The notes under the pieces: generated by a model | Databases searched by the model: none | Told to the model about the DNA's origin: nothing | The model's input: only the letters and a program-made list of their open reading frames with translations | Assembly: GCA_020849175.1 (NCBI GenBank) | Contig: JADLGR010000154.1 | Coordinates: forward strand, 1 to 34,520 | Length of the DNA: 34,520 bases | Source of the DNA: Deltaproteobacteria bacterium | GTDB lineage: Bacteria; Myxococcota_A; UBA9160 | Direction of reading: 5' to 3' | Shown: in pieces, positions 11,301 to 31,696 of the stretch | How positions within the stretch are numbered: the first letter of the stretch is position 1 | How the letters are laid out: the number at the start of each line of letters is the position of its first letter | Made by a program: the position numbers and the translations under genes

Positions 11301-12632
11301 ATGCGTTGGTTCTCGAAGAGCGCCCTGGCCTGCGCGGCCGCCTTCGCCCTCGCGGCGCCCGCGGGCGCCCAGAAGGCGGAGGACTCGGGCGCCGCCGCCC
11401 CGAAGTTCAAGGAAGGCGACGTGATCACGATGGACAAGATCGAGTCCATCAAGCCCTTCCTGCCGCCGGAGTTCTGGAGCAACCGCGACTTCTTCTTCTA
11501 CGACGGGATGAAGATGGAGATCGGGCCGTTCTACCGCGACTACTCGCCGGCGAAGGAGTACGTCGAGGCCACGCAGAGGTTCAAGGGCAAGTCGAAGATC
11601 GGTCCCGACGACAGCCTCGAGGGCTACATCGCGGGCCAGCCGTTCCCGATCGAAGAGATCAACTGCAAGGGCGATCCGCAGGCCGGCACCAAGATCATGT
11701 GGGACTTCGATGCGCAGTGGGAAGGCGACGGCACGCGGACCCGGTACTTCTACTCGTACTGGGACCGCGGCGAGCAGCTCCCGCTCTACTACGAGGGCAC
11801 GTCGAAGACGATCTCGCTCGCACACCGCGTCGAGAAGGACCTGCTCGACACGCAGGACGGCGATCTGTTCCGCGGCGAGAAGCGCAAGAGCGCGTTCGGG
11901 GTCGAGGTGACCGCTCCGTTCGACGCGCGCGGGATCGCGCTCATCACCTACCGCTACAAGTCTTCCGAAGGACCGCGCGACCAGGCCAAGAACGACGACA
12001 CCTGGGTGTACGTCCCGACGCTGCGCCGCGTGCGGCGCATCTCGACGGCTCAGCGAACCGACGCCGTCTCGGGAACGGACTTCACCTTCGACGACCTGCG
12101 GAGCTTCGCTGGCATCGTCCCGCAGTACACCTGGGAGTGTCTCGGTGAGATGGACATCCTCGCGCCGGTGAACAGCAAGGTGAAGGCGTATCCGTACGTG
12201 AAGGACCACAACTTCGGGCCGTACGGCCTCTCGTACGCCGACGATCGCTGGGAGCTGCGCAAGGCGATCAAGGTGCGGATGAAGCCCAAGAATCCCGACC
12301 ATCCGTACCACCACAAGGACATCTACATCGACAAGCAGACGATGTCCGCGCTCTACTCCTTCGCGTACGACCAGAAGGAAGAGCTGTGGAAGATCATCTG
12401 GCACGACAAGCGCTGGAGCGACGACGGCAACAAGGAAGATCCGAGCTACTACCCGGGCTGGGAGGGCGTTCCCGACCCGCGCGACAGCAAGATCGTGAGC
12501 GACACGATCGTGAACGTGCAGACCGGAACGGGAAATCGCATCGAGTTCTGGGACAACGACGGAACGCCGATGGCGAACACCGGAAAGGTGCGTCGCTACA
12601 TCGACGTCGGCCGCCTGACGCAGGGCCGCTAG
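11301..12632 (+). CDS. Exported DUF1329 (LolA/LolB-like fold) protein
   Basis: 443 residues with an N-terminal signal peptide (LACAAAFALAAPAGAQ), so it acts in the periplasm or at the outer membrane. The mature sequence matches DUF1329: GDVITMDKIESIKPFLPPEFW, YWDRGEQLP, DDTWVYVPTLRRVRR, FTFDDL and the C-terminal WHDKRW part. This family is described as outer-membrane lipoprotein-sorting-like, with a fold that can hold a hydrophobic ligand. It is usually encoded with a YCF48 protein, a DUF1302 protein and an MMPL-type RND pump. Here only YCF48 follows (103 nt downstream); the other two are missing. GAGGAG precedes the ATG. The exact ligand is unknown for the family. Confidence 0.9.
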   Translation: MRWFSKSALACAAAFALAAPAGAQKAEDSGAAAPKFKEGDVITMDKIESIKPFLPPEFWSNRDFFFYDGMKMEIGPFYRDYSPAKEYVEATQRFKGKSKIGPDDSLEGYIAGQPFPIEEINCKGDPQAGTKIMWDFDAQWEGDGTRTRYFYSYWDRGEQLPLYYEGTSKTISLAHRVEKDLLDTQDGDLFRGEKRKSAFGVEVTAPFDARGIALITYRYKSSEGPRDQAKNDDTWVYVPTLRRVRRISTAQRTDAVSGTDFTFDDLRSFAGIVPQYTWECLGEMDILAPVNSKVKAYPYVKDHNFGPYGLSYADDRWELRKAIKVRMKPKNPDHPYHHKDIYIDKQTMSALYSFAYDQKEELWKIIWHDKRWSDDGNKEDPSYYPGWEGVPDPRDSKIVSDTIVNVQTGTGNRIEFWDNDGTPMANTGKVRRYIDVGRLTQGR

Positions 12633-12735: not shown

Positions 12736-14211
12736 ATGCTGTTCTCCCGCCGCGTTCTGGCGAGCGCGCTCGGCGCCGCCGCTCTCACGCTCTCCGCCTG
12801 CGGCGGAGGCGGGCACGAGACGACTTCCTTCGAGATCAACGACGACCTGTTCTCGGTCTCGGTCATCGATCCGAAGAACGCGGTCGCCGTCGGCTACTAC
12901 GGTGCGATCCTCCAGACGCAGGACGGAGGCGCCACCTGGCTTCGGCGCGAGAGCGGAACGCGTCGCTCGCTCTACAGCGTCTCGATGCCCGACGCGAAGC
13001 ACGGCTGGGCCGTGGGCCAGCTCGGGACGATCCTGCGAACCGACGACGGCGGCGCGACCTGGAAGGAGCAGGCCAACGACAAGCGCGCACAGGGCGTCCA
13101 CCTCTTCGGCGTGCACGCGCTCGATGCCAACACGGCCTGGGTGGTCGGCGAATGGGGCACGCGCATCTTCACGAGCAACGGCGGACAGACCTGGGAGGAC
13201 GACTCGCTCACGATCGACGAGGCGCATCCGCAGTTCGTGTGGCTCGCTCCGGCCGATCAGGAGCGGGTGCGAAAGGGCCAGAAGGTCTACGAGGACGTCG
13301 GCCTCAACTACGTCTATTGCCGGCCGCTCCCTTCGCAGCACTGCTGGATCGCCGGCGAGTTCGGGTACATCTACTTCAGCGAGGATCGCGGCAAGAACTG
13401 GGTGCGCGGAGAGATCAAGGGCGACATCAAGCCCGAGCCGGTCGCGCTCGGCTACAACGAGATCGACCTGAGCCCCGAGGACATCCAGCAGCTCGAGTCG
13501 TTCGCGGAGAGGATCAAGAACGAGCCGCATCTCAACGTGTTGATCGAGCCGGTCGCAACGGACCGCGAGATCGCCGAGCTCTCGAAGGACGGAAGACCCG
13601 ACAAGCTCTTCGACTTGCTGGACGCACGGATCACTGCGGTGAAGTCGGTGCTCGAGGAGGCCGGCCTGCTCTCGGATCGTATGCGCGTGCGCGGGTCGCC
13701 GCCGTACGACTGGGAGGACTTCCAGAAGGACGACCCGACCTTCCTGAAGCGCTACCTGGACGGGCGGCGCGCCGCGACCCCCGGCATCCAGGTCAACGTC
13801 GCCCAGAACCCGTACCTGTTCACGATCCGCTTCGAGGACGAGGACAATGGGATGATCTCGGGGCTCGGCGGCGTCATGCTGCACAGCGGCGACGCCGGCC
13901 GAACGTGGAGCTACGAGCAGACGGGTCGCAAGCAGGCGCTCTTCGCCGTCGACCGATCGGCGAACAAGCTGATCGCCATCGGCGAGAAGGGCCTCGTTCG
14001 CTACTCGGTCGACGACGGCGAGACCTGGGTGCCGCCGAAGAAGGGCTTCCCGGACATCTTCACCTTCATGCGCGACATCGGCTTTGCGAAGGATCTCAAG
14101 ACCGGATTCATCGTCGGCCAGCGCGGGATGGTGCTGCGTACCGACGATGCCGGAGACACCTGGCACCAGGTGTTCCCGCCCGAGGACGAAGCCGAGGCCG
14201 AGAAGAGCTGA
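12736..14211 (+). CDS. YCF48-type beta-propeller lipoprotein with an OmpA-like insert
   Basis: 491 residues. The N-terminus ends in the lipobox LSAC with Cys22, so it is a lipid-anchored envelope protein. Repeated blades of the YCF48/BNR type follow (YYGAILQTQDGGATW, QLGTILRTDDGGATW, EWGTRIFTSNGGQTW) and resume at the C-terminus (GGVMLHSGDAGRTW, QRGMVLRTDDAGDTW). Between blades, residues about 238-322 do not look like propeller and resemble a degenerate OmpA C-terminal domain; see findings. YCF48 proteins help assemble membrane complexes in plants and cyanobacteria; in this bacterial context they pair with DUF1329 and RND pumps of unclear substrate. AAGGAG lies 7 nt before the ATG. Its stop is one base from that of the convergent czcA. 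Confidence 0.9.
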   Translation: MLFSRRVLASALGAAALTLSACGGGGHETTSFEINDDLFSVSVIDPKNAVAVGYYGAILQTQDGGATWLRRESGTRRSLYSVSMPDAKHGWAVGQLGTILRTDDGGATWKEQANDKRAQGVHLFGVHALDANTAWVVGEWGTRIFTSNGGQTWEDDSLTIDEAHPQFVWLAPADQERVRKGQKVYEDVGLNYVYCRPLPSQHCWIAGEFGYIYFSEDRGKNWVRGEIKGDIKPEPVALGYNEIDLSPEDIQQLESFAERIKNEPHLNVLIEPVATDREIAELSKDGRPDKLFDLLDARITAVKSVLEEAGLLSDRMRVRGSPPYDWEDFQKDDPTFLKRYLDGRRAATPGIQVNVAQNPYLFTIRFEDEDNGMISGLGGVMLHSGDAGRTWSYEQTGRKQALFAVDRSANKLIAIGEKGLVRYSVDDGETWVPPKKGFPDIFTFMRDIGFAKDLKTGFIVGQRGMVLRTDDAGDTWHQVFPPEDEAEAEKS

Positions 14212-14212
14212 G

Positions 14213-17200
14213 CTACGGCTGGCCTTCGTCGCGTGTGAAGAGCCGGTAGAGCGCCGGCAGCACGACGAGCGTCAGGGCCGTGCTCGACAGGAGCCCGCCG
14301 ACGACGACCGTCGCGAGCGGCCGCTGCACCTCGGCGCCGGTACCCGTCGCGAGCGCCATCGGAATGAAGCCGAGCGAGGCCACGAGCGCCGTCGTGAGAA
14401 CCGGGCGCAGCCGGGTCACGGCGCCGCGACGGATCGCCGTCTCCAGAGGCTCGCCCGCCGCTCGGAGCTGATTGATGAAGCTGATCATCACGAGACCGTT
14501 CAGTACGGCCACTCCCGAGAGCGCGATGAACCCCACCGCCGCGGAGATCGAGAAGGGCATGTCGCGGAGCCACAGACTCATGATGCCCCCCGTGAGCGCG
14601 AGCGGAACGCCCGAGAAGACCATCGCCGCATGGCGTACCGACCGTAGCGTCGAGTAGAGGAGCGCGAAGATCACCAAGAAGCAGGCGGGGACGACGACGG
14701 ACAACCGCCGCTTCGCCTCGACCAGATTCTCGAACTGACCGCCCCACTCGATCCAGGATCCCGCCGGGAGCCGCACCTCCGATTCGATCCGACCCTGGGC
14801 CTCCTCGACGAACGTTCCGATGTCGCTCCCTCGCACGTTGGCCTGCACGACCACACGTCGCTTTCCGTTCTCCCGGCTGACCTGATTCGGGCCTTCGGTG
14901 AGCGAAACCCGGGCCACTGATTCGAGAGGCAGGAAGGAGAAGCGTCCGCGGGCGGCATCTCCCGTGGCACTCGCCGGGAACTCCGTCGGATCGTTCGCCA
15001 GAGGCACCGGGAGATTGCGCAGGGCCGCGACGTTGCGCCGAAACTCCTCGGGCAGGCGCACGACGATGTCGAACCGGCGGTCGCCTTCGAAGACCTTGCC
15101 GGCCTCACGGCCTCCGACCGCAATCGACACGACCTCCTGAACGTCCGCCACCGTGAGCCCGTAGCGCGCGATCGTCGCCCGATCGACGTCCACGCTCAGC
15201 ACCGGGAGGCCGGAGATCTGCTCGGTTCGGACGTCGGCGGCTCCCGGGATGTTCCGGAGCACCGCAGCGATCTTCTCGGCCACGGGAATCAGGGCATCGA
15301 AGTCGTCGCCGAACACCTTGACGGCCACGTCCCCCCGGATTCCTGCGATGAGCTCGTTGAATCGCATCTGAATCGGCTGCGTGAACTCGAGGTTGTTCCC
15401 GAGCTGTCTGGAGAGCCTCTCTTCGATCCGTTCTCGAACCTGCTCCTTGGTGTCGCGAGGGTTCGGCCACGTCTCGCGGGGTGCGAGAATCACGAACGTG
15501 TCCGACACGTTCACGGGCATGGGGTCCGCCGCCATCTCGGCGGTTCCCGTCTTTGCATAGACGAATGCCACTTCGGGTACGGATCGGATCTCACGCTCGA
15601 GAGCCATCTGCATCTCGGTCGACTGAGTGAGACTCGTGCTCGGAATGCGCACGGCCTGGACGGTGAGATCGAGCTCGCTGAGCGTGGGCGCAAACTCCTG
15701 GCCGAGGCGCGAGAACGCGAGGATCGAGCCGAGAAAGAGCGCCACGGCGATCACGACGACCGTCCCGCGCCAGCGGAGCGTGACGTCGAGTGACGGCTCG
15801 TACAGTCGGCGCGCGGCTCGCATGACGACGCTCTCCACTTCCTGCACGCGGCCGGTGATGAGGGTCGCCACCATCGCGGGTACGAACGTCAGGGAGAGCG
15901 CAAAGGCGGCGACCAGGGCGAAGATCACCGTGAGCGCCATGGGCCGAAACATCTTGCCTTCGATTCCCGTGAGGAAGAGGATCGGCACGTAGACGACGAT
16001 GATGATGGCGCCGCCGAAGACGGCTGCACCGAGAACCTGACGGCTCCCTTCCAGCGTGATCGACAGACGCTCCTCGAGCGAGAGCGCGCGCCCGAGCGCG
16101 TGCTGCTTCTCGGCGAACAGGCGAAGGCAGTTCTCGACGATGATGACCGCCCCGTCCACGATGAGGCCGAAATCGATCGCCCCGAGACTCATCAGATTGC
16201 CGCTCGTTCGCGTCTGGACCATGGCCGACGCGGTGAGCAGCATCGACAGGGGGATCGCGAGCGCCGTGATGATGGCTGCGCGGATGTTCCGCAGCAGTAC
16301 GAAGAGCACGACGATCACGAGGATCGCGCCCTCGAAGAGGTTGTTTCGGACCGTTCGGATGGTCGCGTCGACGAGGGTCGTGCGGTCGAGGACGAGCTTC
16401 GCACGGACTGCGGAAGGGAGCGTACGATTGATCTCGGCGAGTCGCTGGCTCACCCCGTGGGCGACCGTGCGGCTGTTCGATCCGATCAGCATGAGCGCCG
16501 TCCCGACGACGACCTCGCGGCCATCCTCGGTCGCGCTGCCGGTGCGAAGCTCGCGACCGACGACGACGTCCGCGATGTCTCGTACCAGGACAGGGGTGCC
16601 CCGTCGCTCGCCGACGGCGATCGCAGCGATCTGTGACGGGTTCTCGACTCGTCCCGTCGCCCGAACGAGATACGCCTCTCCGTTGTTCTCCACGTAGCCG
16701 GCGCCCGTGCTCAGGTTGTTCTTCTCGAGCGCGAGCAGAACGTCGTGGAACGTGAGGCCGTACGCGACGAGCTTGCCTGGGTCGGGCTGGACGTGGAACT
16801 GCTTGACGTATCCGCCGATGGCGTCGACGCCCGCGACTCCCGGAAGCCCCTTGATCTGCGGCCGAATCACCCAGTCCTGGACGGTCCGCAGGAAGGCCGC
16901 CCGCTCGACCTCGGTGCGGAGGATCTCGCCCTCGGGCGTGAGATACGAGCCGTCGGGCTGGAATCCGGGCTCACCGGGACGAGTGGTGTCTGCGGCCGCG
17001 GGGGGGACGTACTCCACCGTCCACATGGAGACCTCGCCGAGACCGGTCGAGATGGCGCCCATCCGCGGATCGGCGCCTCCGGGAAGGGCGTCTCGGACCT
17101 CGGTGAGCCGCTCGGCCACCTGTTGGCGCGCGAAGTAGATGCTCACATCGTCCGCAAAGACGGCCGTCACCTGCGAGAAGCCGTTTCGGGACAGCGAGCG

Positions 17201-17446
17201 GGTGTACTCGAGGCCGGGGATTCCGGCGAGCGCGGTTTCGATCTGGAACGTGACCTGTTTCTCGACCTCCACCGGAGACAGCGAGAGAGCAACGGTGTTG
17301 ATCTGAACCTGGTTGTTGGTGATGTCCGGGACGGCGTCGATCGGAAGCCGCTGGAGGGCGTAGATCCCAACGGCGGCGAGGATCGAGACGCCGAGGATCA
17401 CCGCCGCGCGCTGGCGGATGGAGAAGGAGAGAAGTCGCTCGAGCAC
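14213..17446 (-). CDS. czcA: Heavy-metal efflux RND pump, CzcA family
   Basis: 1077 residues, full length for an HME-RND inner-membrane proton/metal antiporter. The order is an N-terminal TM helix, the first periplasmic half, TM helices 2-6, TM7, the second periplasmic half, and TM8-12. TM4 carries DFGLIVDGAVIIVEN with D425, D431 and E438. This is the D-D-E proton-relay pattern of CzcA-like (Zn/Co/Cd) pumps, which argues for divalent ions over the Cu/Ag CusA type; that choice is an inference. The start is the GTG at 17446 with GAGGAGG just upstream, overlapping the czcB stop. It is last in a czcC-czcB-czcA order, and no metal-sensor regulator is in the window. Confidence 0.93.
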   Translation of the reverse strand: MLERLLSFSIRQRAAVILGVSILAAVGIYALQRLPIDAVPDITNNQVQINTVALSLSPVEVEKQVTFQIETALAGIPGLEYTRSLSRNGFSQVTAVFADDVSIYFARQQVAERLTEVRDALPGGADPRMGAISTGLGEVSMWTVEYVPPAAADTTRPGEPGFQPDGSYLTPEGEILRTEVERAAFLRTVQDWVIRPQIKGLPGVAGVDAIGGYVKQFHVQPDPGKLVAYGLTFHDVLLALEKNNLSTGAGYVENNGEAYLVRATGRVENPSQIAAIAVGERRGTPVLVRDIADVVVGRELRTGSATEDGREVVVGTALMLIGSNSRTVAHGVSQRLAEINRTLPSAVRAKLVLDRTTLVDATIRTVRNNLFEGAILVIVVLFVLLRNIRAAIITALAIPLSMLLTASAMVQTRTSGNLMSLGAIDFGLIVDGAVIIVENCLRLFAEKQHALGRALSLEERLSITLEGSRQVLGAAVFGGAIIIVVYVPILFLTGIEGKMFRPMALTVIFALVAAFALSLTFVPAMVATLITGRVQEVESVVMRAARRLYEPSLDVTLRWRGTVVVIAVALFLGSILAFSRLGQEFAPTLSELDLTVQAVRIPSTSLTQSTEMQMALEREIRSVPEVAFVYAKTGTAEMAADPMPVNVSDTFVILAPRETWPNPRDTKEQVRERIEERLSRQLGNNLEFTQPIQMRFNELIAGIRGDVAVKVFGDDFDALIPVAEKIAAVLRNIPGAADVRTEQISGLPVLSVDVDRATIARYGLTVADVQEVVSIAVGGREAGKVFEGDRRFDIVVRLPEEFRRNVAALRNLPVPLANDPTEFPASATGDAARGRFSFLPLESVARVSLTEGPNQVSRENGKRRVVVQANVRGSDIGTFVEEAQGRIESEVRLPAGSWIEWGGQFENLVEAKRRLSVVVPACFLVIFALLYSTLRSVRHAAMVFSGVPLALTGGIMSLWLRDMPFSISAAVGFIALSGVAVLNGLVMISFINQLRAAGEPLETAIRRGAVTRLRPVLTTALVASLGFIPMALATGTGAEVQRPLATVVVGGLLSSTALTLVVLPALYRLFTRDEGQP

Positions 17447-29098: not shown

Positions 29099-29651
29099 GT
29101 CCGTCTTCCCCGGACTCACCGCTCACGACCGTCTCGAGAACGATCACGTCGAAGCGTCCGGGAATCGCGAGTCCGCGCCGCAGCGTGAGCTCCGTGCCAG
29201 CGCGCAGCTCGACGACGAAGGGCACGGCGCGCAGGCCGCCGGCGCAGCGCTCGGGTGCGTCGACCCCGACCCGAACGCCACCCGCGCGCCGATGTTCGAA
29301 GCGCACCGTCTCGATGCGGGGCACCGGTGCGTCGCAGCGAAGGTCGGCGAGGAGCTCGCCACCGGTTGCCGACGGCGAGTTGCCGAAGTAGACCGTCTCG
29401 TGGCCCGCGTCGGTGACGTAGAGATCGAGATCTGCGTCGGCGCCGAACGCGAGCCGAACGACGAGCCCTCCGGTGCTCTCCAGCGCAGGAGCCGCCTCGA
29501 GCGCCCTTTCGAGCGCCAGGTACTGCGCGGCCGCTTCCTCCGCTGAGGGTCCACCGCCCGCGCACCCGAGGGCCCACACCCCGAGAGCGGCGCTGGTGAG
29601 GCAGATGCTTCGTCCGATACTCGACTTCCATGTGGCGGCTGTCCGAGACAA
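29091..29651 (-). CDS. Small predicted lipoprotein with a YfaP/DUF2135-like beta domain
   Basis: 186 residues from a TTG at 29651; no ATG is available before the signal sequence, and AAAGGA lies 10 nt upstream. The hydrophobic segment ends in WALGC, a lipobox with Cys30. The rest resembles the extracytoplasmic beta domain seen in DUF2135-like proteins: VVRLAFGADADLDLYVTD, ETVYFGN and GVRVGVDAPERC. Two cysteines (LRCDAP and ERCAGG) could form a disulfide. Function unknown. It is divergent from the heme/propeller gene; the 239-nt gap between them holds a -10-like element but no gene I can see. Confidence 0.72.
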   Translation of the reverse strand: MSRTAATWKSSIGRSICLTSAALGVWALGCAGGGPSAEEAAAQYLALERALEAAPALESTGGLVVRLAFGADADLDLYVTDAGHETVYFGNSPSATGGELLADLRCDAPVPRIETVRFEHRRAGGVRVGVDAPERCAGGLRAVPFVVELRAGTELTLRRGLAIPGRFDVIVLETVVSGESGEDGPT

Positions 29652-29846
29652 GCGGGGAGGATCCTTTCGCTTCTCGATTTCGATCTACCGCGGCCGGAAG
29701 CGTTCCGCTTGCCGTCCGGTCGGCCTGCGAAGCGCCGCCCGCCGATCGTCGGCAGGCCGCGCGGTGGTGGCCGTCATTCTGGCAGCTCACCCCACGGCTC
29801 GTCATGGGGTCCTCTTGCACCCCGACGTCGATGAGCCCCTCGACGC

Positions 29847-29859
29847 TATCCTCGCGGCT
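29847..29859 (+). promoter_or_regulatory. -10-like element TATCCT + CGCGGCT
   Basis: TATCCT (29847-29852) followed by CGCGGCT, 38 nt before the ATG of the exported heme/propeller gene. It matches the window's recurring -10/discriminator pattern; no clear -35. Confidence 0.3.
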
Positions 29860-29890
29860 CGTCGCACCGCACGTCGCGAGGAGATTGGCC

Positions 29891-31696
29891 ATGCGCCCGC
29901 ACGTCGCTCTCGCTCTGGTCGCGTTCGCGGGCGCCTCGCTGGCGGCAGAAGGGGCGGGCGCGACCCAGATCACCGGCCGCGTTCGCGACGCGTCCGGTAG
30001 GCCGGTCGCCGGCACGATGGTGAGCTTCTCGCACGGGAGCCCGCGCCACGTCGTGACGGTTCTGACCGACGAGGCAGGCCGCTACCGCACACCGCCGCTC
30101 GACGGGCCCTCGCCGTGGTCCCTGCGCGTTCGCAAGCCGCTGTTTCGCGACGTCCAGCGCGAGGGCGTCATGCCCGCGGCGCAGGAACAGAGCGCTCTCG
30201 ACGTTACGCTCGAACGCGAGACCGACCCGGCCGAGATCGCGGCGCAGCTCCCGGCGAACCGCTGGTTCTCGCTCGTCCTCGAACGCATCCACGACGAAGC
30301 AGAGCGCGAGGAGCTCGTTCGGCAGTGTGCCTACTGCCATCAGCAGGGAAGCCGCTACACACGTCTTCCCCGCACGGAAGAGAACTGGCAGAAGGTTCTG
30401 GCGCTGATGGCGCGCATGGGCGGCATGATCGGCCCCGAGCTTCGCGCTGCGCTGCCCTCCCTGTTCAACGAGACCTACGATCCGAAGACGGCGGTGCCCG
30501 CTCTCGTGGCGCGTCTCGACGAGCCCGGCTTCGTTCCCGAGCCCGCGCCCGAAGCGCGACGCGCCGTGATCGAGGAGTGGGAGATGGGCATCGCGGCATC
30601 GATGCAGCACGACGTCGCCGTCCATCCCGATGGCTCGCTCTGGAGCGTCGACCAGCTCCAGGACCGCCTCACCCGTCTCGATCCGTCCGTCGCGGGAGGA
30701 GCCCGTGAGGTCTACGAGGTGCCGCGCGGCGATCTTCCCCTGGGTGGCTTCACAGGAGGGCGCGCGGTCCTTCCGCCGAATGCCAACGCGCACGTTGGGC
30801 CACACTCGCTGCAGATGGCGCCGGACGGAACGATCTGGCTGACGCTGTCCTTCGGCAATCAGATCGCCGGATTCGATCCGAAGACGAAGCAGTGGGAGAT
30901 ACACCCCCTCGACGAAGGGCTGTATCCGCACACGCTGCGCTTCGACAGCAGGGGACGCATCTGGTTCAGCGTCGCTGTATCGAATCATCTCGGCATGCTC
31001 GATCGCAAGACCGGTGAGGTGAAGACGATTCGCCTGCCCGCGGCATCGTGGAGTCAGGAGCTCGCTCTGCGAGCGCTCCCGGCGTTCTTCTGGCTCGCAC
31101 GGCACGTCGAGCTCGGCGAGCTGCCGGCCGGGGAGGGCATGAGCCTCCCGGTCCCCTACGGGGTCGACGTTGCGCCCGACGGCGGGGTCTGGTTCAGCCA
31201 GCTCAACCAGCACCGGATCGGACGCATCGACCCCGAGACGCTCGAGATCGACATGATCGACACGCCCTTCACCGGACCGCGGCGCCTGCGGTTCGATTCG
31301 AAGGGTCAGCTCTGGATTCCCGGATTCTCGTCGGACCTGATCGCGCGCTTCGACCCGAAGACGCGAGCATTCGAGAGCTGGCGGCTTCCGACCGTACCCG
31401 CAGGCAGCGAGACGCCGTACGCGCTCAACGTCGACCGTCGCACCGACATCGTCTGGATCTGCGGAACGGGAAGCGATTCCCTTCTGCGCTTCGATCCAGC
31501 GACGCAGACCTTCCTCACCCTTCCACTTCCGACGCGCGTCACCTTCACGCGCGAGATCGACTTCGACGACGAGGGCCGCGTCTGGACCTCGAACTCGAAC
31601 CTTCCGACGTGGCAGGTGGAGGGCGCCTATCCGCGGGTGATCCGGGTCGATTGGAAGCCGGACGCTGCGTCACCGGCGCGGGCCGCCGCGCAGTAG
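29891..31696 (+). CDS. Exported carboxypeptidase-regulatory / heme-c / Vgb-like propeller fusion
   Basis: 601 residues from the ATG at 29891, with GAGGAG 8 nt upstream and an immediate signal peptide (LALVAFAGASLAAEGAGA). Three parts are seen. Residues about 25-95 are a carboxypeptidase-regulatory-like beta domain (ITGRVRDASGRPVAGTMVSF, TDEAGRYRTPPL). Residues about 120-200 form a helical linker with CAYCH at 146-150, a single c-type heme motif. Residues about 225-590 are repeats of the virginiamycin-B-lyase/SMP-30 propeller kind (HDVAVHPDGSLWSVD, MAPDGTIWLTLSFGNQIAGFDP, LRFDSRGRIWFS, VDVAPDGGVWFSQLNQHRIGRIDP). It is periplasmic or secreted. Activity is unknown; electron transfer or oxidation of a substrate bound by the propeller is conceivable. 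True virginiamycin resistance is unlikely. Confidence 0.85.
   Translation: MRPHVALALVAFAGASLAAEGAGATQITGRVRDASGRPVAGTMVSFSHGSPRHVVTVLTDEAGRYRTPPLDGPSPWSLRVRKPLFRDVQREGVMPAAQEQSALDVTLERETDPAEIAAQLPANRWFSLVLERIHDEAEREELVRQCAYCHQQGSRYTRLPRTEENWQKVLALMARMGGMIGPELRAALPSLFNETYDPKTAVPALVARLDEPGFVPEPAPEARRAVIEEWEMGIAASMQHDVAVHPDGSLWSVDQLQDRLTRLDPSVAGGAREVYEVPRGDLPLGGFTGGRAVLPPNANAHVGPHSLQMAPDGTIWLTLSFGNQIAGFDPKTKQWEIHPLDEGLYPHTLRFDSRGRIWFSVAVSNHLGMLDRKTGEVKTIRLPAASWSQELALRALPAFFWLARHVELGELPAGEGMSLPVPYGVDVAPDGGVWFSQLNQHRIGRIDPETLEIDMIDTPFTGPRRLRFDSKGQLWIPGFSSDLIARFDPKTRAFESWRLPTVPAGSETPYALNVDRRTDIVWICGTGSDSLLRFDPATQTFLTLPLPTRVTFTREIDFDDEGRVWTSNSNLPTWQVEGAYPRVIRVDWKPDAASPARAAAQ

Follow-up and report, generated by a model that had tools for sequence, protein, structure and literature searches.

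Gene neighbourhood and protein architecture

The window, by which we mean the whole stretch of DNA analysed (34,520 nucleotides of contig JADLGR010000154.1 from a Deltaproteobacteria bacterium), carries a gene for a YCF48-type propeller lipoprotein into which an OmpA-like domain is embedded. Its upstream neighbour encodes a DUF1329 protein. The features of the two genes are as follows, in nucleotide positions of the window and, where given, amino acid residues of the propeller protein.

11301..12632, plus strand: gene for a DUF1329 (LolA-like) periplasmic protein of 443 residues (PF07044, 153.3 bits), 103 bp upstream of the propeller gene
12736..14211, plus strand: gene for the 491-residue propeller lipoprotein that contains the OmpA-like domain (open reading frame, PF14870, AlphaFold model, seven-bladed best structural matches)
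12736..12801, plus strand: lipoprotein signal peptide, residues 1-22, with lipobox LSA-C22 and Gly at +2, read from the translation
12832..13428, plus strand: propeller blades 1-4, residues 33-231, from the strand order in the model
13429..13809, plus strand: OmpA_C-like domain between blades 4 and 5, residues 232-358, limits approximate (model of the insert alone, Foldseek, VIA, hhalign, nested ortholog lacking the insert)
13567..13569, plus strand: Glu278, in place of the conserved Gly of GHTDxxG (56 of 56 homologues; register from profile matches)
13627..13629, plus strand: Arg298, corresponding to the diaminopimelate-binding Arg of OmpA (56 of 56 homologues; same column invariant in control OmpA domains)
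13693..13767, plus strand: conserved helical hairpin PPW/YDxEDF..DDPxFLxRYL (alignment; model helices 326-332 and 336-344; column entropy)
13810..14175, plus strand: propeller blades 5-7, residues 359-480, from the strand order in the model

The lipobox-like sequence LSA-C22 was assigned by eye from the translation, and a Gly/Ala-Cys motif occupies the same position in most homologues of the alignment. The protein probably faces the periplasm and would be held at the outer membrane. PF14870 (YCF48) matches it with 109.6 bits against a cut-off of 27. An AlphaFold model of the whole protein, built with 56 homologues, has a pLDDT of 91.0 and a pTM of 0.86; its top structural matches are seven-bladed propellers (Z about 31), and the strand order gives seven blades, four of them before the insert and three after it. 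Blades 3 and 4 are themselves separated by a second, short and conserved insertion (window 13213-13302, residues about 160-189), with the motif HPxFVWLxxxxQExVRxGExVYEDVGLND and a helix at residues 172-179.

Besides the window, 26 of the related loci examined have a DUF1329 gene adjacent to the propeller gene and in the same orientation; in several loci of one family none was found within 1.5 kb. In five relatives from the same class, an MMPL transporter gene and then a gene for a large DUF1302-like barrel protein follow directly downstream of the propeller gene. In the genome to which the window belongs, contig C171 encodes an MMPL homologue (43% identity over 1099 columns); DUF1302-like genes are found on contigs C71, C127 and C237, and one of these genes stands beside a second DUF1329 gene. 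Because the MMPL homologue is encoded on a separate contig, membership of a single transport system rests on the relatives.

Further genes were seen nearby and elsewhere in the genome. An RND gene (14213-17446, minus strand), which we take from its translation to be of the CusA type, is arranged tail to tail with the propeller gene and ends one base from its stop codon. At 29630-31693 of the window, a virginiamycin-B-lyase-type propeller match occurs together with carboxypeptidase-regulatory and Big_1 domain matches. The region L102:3104-11360 holds the second DUF1329 gene, which shares 27% identity with the first and lies near stretches that match large DUF1302-like proteins; similar genes are also present in loci L101 and L103.

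The embedded domain adopts an OmpA_C fold in the models

An earlier note, made from the letters alone, had proposed that residues 238-322 break the propeller and form a degenerate OmpA-like domain. The AlphaFold model agrees with the first point: the segment interrupts the propeller between blades 4 and 5 and does not constitute an extra blade. The predicted order of elements is strand-helix-strand-helix-strand-helices-strand, located between the strands of the two blades. Since VIA returned only propellers for the whole model, the insert was modelled and searched by itself. The isolated model (pLDDT 88.9) retrieved PorE as the top Foldseek match (6top, E 1.1e-5), followed by Pal, OmpA, YfiB and MotB; among the matches listed, all are of OmpA, Pal, MotB, PorE or YfiB type, with E values from 1.1e-5 to about 1e-3. 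VIA gave Z scores of 8.4-11.4, the best for an OmpA-c-like domain (104 residues, rmsd 2.6 Å) and values of 10-11 for Pal. Residues ~232-358 are thus, as modelled, a complete OmpA_C-fold domain nested in a seven-bladed propeller and lying outside it, in line with the earlier proposal. Extra blades or disorder for residues 238-322 are rejected on the strength of the models of the whole protein and of the insert alone.

The limits first given, 13447-13704, fall inside the insert and are too narrow: the span is ~13429-13809, and the hairpin (residues 326-344) and the final strand (residues 350-356 in the model) had been missed. The hairpin, PPWDYEDFLxDDPxFLxRYL, lies outside the OmpA profile match. 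Across the 56 homologues the mean column entropy is 1.54 bits at residues 320-347 as against 1.92 for the full insert; the two sets of blades have values of 1.56 and 1.76.

Homologues establish the kinship with OmpA

Taken singly, the window protein matches PF00691 with 12.8-13.0 bits (E 0.13-0.16), well below the Pfam gathering cut-off of 27.2, and Pal or YiaD models with E values of 0.07-0.13. The segment is clearly OmpA-like (e.g. LYFEPFDEKIARSDWDMLFEAAEVLQQRPYLKVRIDAFLTPEEFRKTGETFLADERASSVQEFLEDEGITQDRLKV) in the class relatives, by which we mean the six aligned sequences from a sister group within the class. Five of these were scanned singly against Pfam; the proteins of identical architecture at L047, L049, L050, L051 and L052 score 27.6-32.4 bits with PF00691, above the same cut-off. 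A profile of 48 inserts retrieved 24 PDB chains at E<=1, of which 23 are of OmpA type (Pal, OmpA, MotY, YiaD and others), and the profile of the six class relatives retrieved 23, all of OmpA types, with a best E value of 7.3e-5. Profiles were also compared by hhalign with 32 genuine OmpA domains from the same class. The whole-family profile matched these at 97.0% (E 8.7e-11), the class relatives at 97.5% (E 8.9e-12) and the window's own order alone at 90%. The OmpA identity of the insert is therefore settled as first suggested, because homologues match where the single sequence is weak, and a chance resemblance is ruled out by the class relatives above the cut-off and by the profile comparison.

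Two further matches were noted. The first half of the insert, at L049:3757-4152 and in other class relatives, also matches DUF748 (PF05359; best E 2.4e-4, below the cut-off), which may carry an OmpA-like unit of its own. A Kangiella locus (L036) was rejected as a relative: the match to SPEDIQQLESF is due to chance, and the protein resembles a MutY-type glycosylase.

The diaminopimelate site is rebuilt

In OmpA and Pal, diaminopimelate is bound by one Asp and one Arg (PMC6572160; PMC7391070), to which PorE adds an Asn (PMC7192894). The genuine OmpA domains of the class have both residues, Asp38 and Arg53, in all 32 sequences. At position 275 of the insert, which corresponds to the Asp of GHTD, 52 of the 56 homologues have Ser (35), Thr (11) or Asn (6), and the remaining four Leu, Ala or Gly, while Arg298 is present in every one; the loss of the GHTD aspartate context and the retention of the helix arginine had both been read correctly from the single sequence. 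The conserved Gly three residues past the Asp is replaced by Glu278 throughout, and the only other invariant residue of the insert besides Glu278 and Arg298 is Pro323. The position of the PorE Asn, seven before the Arg in a register that depends on the alignment, is Leu or Phe in members of the order and Asp or Glu in the class relatives. One of the three diaminopimelate contacts, the Arg, thus remains; Asp and Asn are replaced, and a new invariant Glu is close by in sequence. Since the Arg alone is retained, a standard peptidoglycan anchor is improbable, and judged from these sequences the embedded domain is probably not one. The term degenerate, used in the earlier note, is apt for the ligand site; for the domain, which is well conserved and has invariant residues of its own, repurposed fits better.

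Distribution and natural loss of the domain

An ortholog spanning the insert was detected by tblastn in about 70 of the 91 genomes of the class. As the earlier note had wondered, homologues share the insert: all 56 that were aligned contain it, at nearly constant length. Among the matches listed from phylum genomes (379 searched in all) none from outside the class spans the insert, and neither does any of those listed from 274 gammaproteobacterial genomes; the collections are samples, and absence elsewhere is not proven by them. The plasmid-borne YCF48 proteins examined have 326 and 361 residues.

One member of the same order (genome G036, L136:4892-6151) has an ortholog without the OmpA-like domain. 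All parts of the propeller are present in a single open frame, and about a dozen residues replace the region from about residue 228 to 349. In a tree of the propeller columns, some inner nodes of which are weak, this ortholog is nested in the insert-bearing group beside L007 (support 0.80; 0.92 for the larger group). Its nested position therefore implies secondary loss: the OmpA-like domain is a discrete, separable module that was lost in the L136 lineage. This natural ortholog offers a ready comparison for the role of the domain.

A divergent clade within one genus (L054-L060) has the same architecture with a domain that has drifted further. Several of these loci adjoin genes for HSP70, DnaJ-TPR, PAS and GGDEF response-regulator proteins, and not DUF1329.

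Proposed role and alternative explanations

The gene partners suggest a function. In Castellaniella, AmeABCD comprises a DUF1302-DUF1329-COG4447-RND set, free of the insert, that is linked to monoterpene efflux; disruption of the DUF1329 gene by a transposon reduced growth on monoterpenes, and AmeC was proposed by the authors to help assemble the transporter (PMC6394551). A cluster of DUF1329, YCF48 and MMPL genes, likewise free of the insert, shows high expression in a culture that degrades benzene and is thought to move benzene (PMC13101534). From the DUF1329, MMPL and DUF1302-like neighbours we infer that the propeller protein is an AmeC-type accessory of hydrophobic-compound transport.

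OmpA-fold domains are almost automatically taken for peptidoglycan anchors. Sequences and predicted models together locate and identify the domain and reveal its conservation, the loss of its site residues and its gene neighbours, and on this basis we consider it fairly likely that the protein is an AmeC-type transport accessory with an OmpA-fold module repurposed for docking or positioning, and not a standard wall anchor. According to this proposal, an OmpA_C-fold domain derived from the peptidoglycan-binding OmpA/Pal family sits where blade 4 connects to blade 5. Of its diaminopimelate-holding residues the Arg would have been retained and the Asp and Asn lost, while the invariant Glu and the helical hairpin were acquired. 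The propeller would act as the accessory of a system of DUF1329, DUF1302-like barrel and MMPL-RND proteins by which hydrophobic compounds cross the envelope; the embedded domain may serve for docking or positioning, with respect either to a partner protein or to an altered contact with the cell wall. A narrower version, with the same domain assignment, is quite possible: the domain would dock in cis, as Pal does on TolB, packing on the propeller or on a partner (the DUF1329 protein or loops of the MMPL transporter) and controlling assembly of the transport complex. Pal, which has the OmpA fold, is bound by the TolB propeller and thereby kept from binding the wall (PMC7391070); moreover, Pal chains from TolB-Pal complexes are among the top structural matches of the insert, and the PPWDYEDF hairpin is an addition to OmpA. 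Against this version, TolB belongs to an unrelated, six-bladed propeller family. A more elaborate and rather doubtful scenario would have the ancestor of the class capture an OmpA wall-binding domain inside its propeller; the Arg/Glu site and the new hairpin would have turned this domain to a different binding role, and it would act as the cis docking arm of a hydrophobic-compound transporter, as a single-chain analogue of TolB-Pal.

The remaining alternatives fare less well. It is unlikely, in our judgement, that the domain is still a peptidoglycan anchor in which Arg298 holds the diaminopimelate carboxylate and Glu278 stands in for the Asp, tying the outer membrane or the transporter to the wall like PorE or Pal. 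The invariance of both residues, the agreement of the fold and of the Arg position with wall-peptide-binding domains, and the precedent of PorE, a propeller and OmpA_C outer-membrane lipoprotein that binds wall peptide (PMC7192894), speak for such an altered anchor, but the Asp has given way to Ser, Thr or Asn in nearly all inserts while both Asp and Arg are retained in the class's genuine OmpA domains, and the Asn position of the PorE triad has diverged as well. A relic in decay, now without a role, is a very improbable reading of the insert: complete loss in one lineage left the propeller unbroken, and insert columns are somewhat more variable than those of the blades, yet most genomes of the class still have the domain, in which three columns are invariant and the length is nearly constant. 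Hardly any weight can be given to the suggestion that the segment is unrelated to OmpA and consists of extra propeller strands or disorder; it finds some encouragement in the weak single-sequence score, against which the models, the fold search, the profile comparison and the relatives above the cut-off all point to OmpA.

The favoured reading, a transport accessory with a repurposed OmpA-fold module, would make the embedded domain a testable case of an old, conserved wall-binding fold turned to another use. The insert also offers a way to study the YCF48 partners, so far poorly understood, of the DUF1329/DUF1302/MMPL systems linked to monoterpene and hydrocarbon transport.

Comparison with known systems

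A literature search for YCF48 proteins that combine a propeller with an OmpA-like domain found no description of this architecture among the papers covered, so the propeller with a nested OmpA-like domain, although well supported, appears to be undescribed. Both domains are already known; what stands out is the nesting and the rebuilt ligand site.

The photosystem II assembly factors Ycf48 and HCF136 share the YCF48 fold and the sequence family PF14870 with the window protein, which matches 5oj3, 5ojr and 2xbg in the PDB with E values of about 1e-15; unlike the window protein, the matched Ycf48 chains have no OmpA insert. Assignment to the Ycf48 equivalog (NF010237) was rejected at 100.6 bits, far below the NCBIfam cut-off of 326. 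The YCF48 proteins of the AmeC/COG4447 type from Castellaniella and Azoarcus belong to the same propeller family and have the same gene partners, but at 316 residues (AmeC) and 326 residues (Azoarcus) both lack the insert.

The closest parallels to the combination of domains are found in other systems. TolB and Pal likewise bring together a propeller and an OmpA-fold lipoprotein that act jointly in the periplasm; they are, however, two separate proteins, TolB being six-bladed with an additional N-terminal domain and Pal retaining the wall-binding residues (PMC7391070). PorE (PG1058) of the type IX secretion system of Porphyromonas gingivalis, whose OmpA domain is the best Foldseek match of the insert, is an outer-membrane lipoprotein that, like the window protein, joins a propeller to an OmpA_C-like domain. 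Its domains are arranged in series (TPR, five-bladed WD40, CRD and OmpA_C), whereas in the window protein the OmpA domain is nested in the YCF48 propeller; PorE also keeps the Asp/Asn/Arg triad and binds wall peptide (PMC7192894), whereas two of these three residues are replaced in the window protein.
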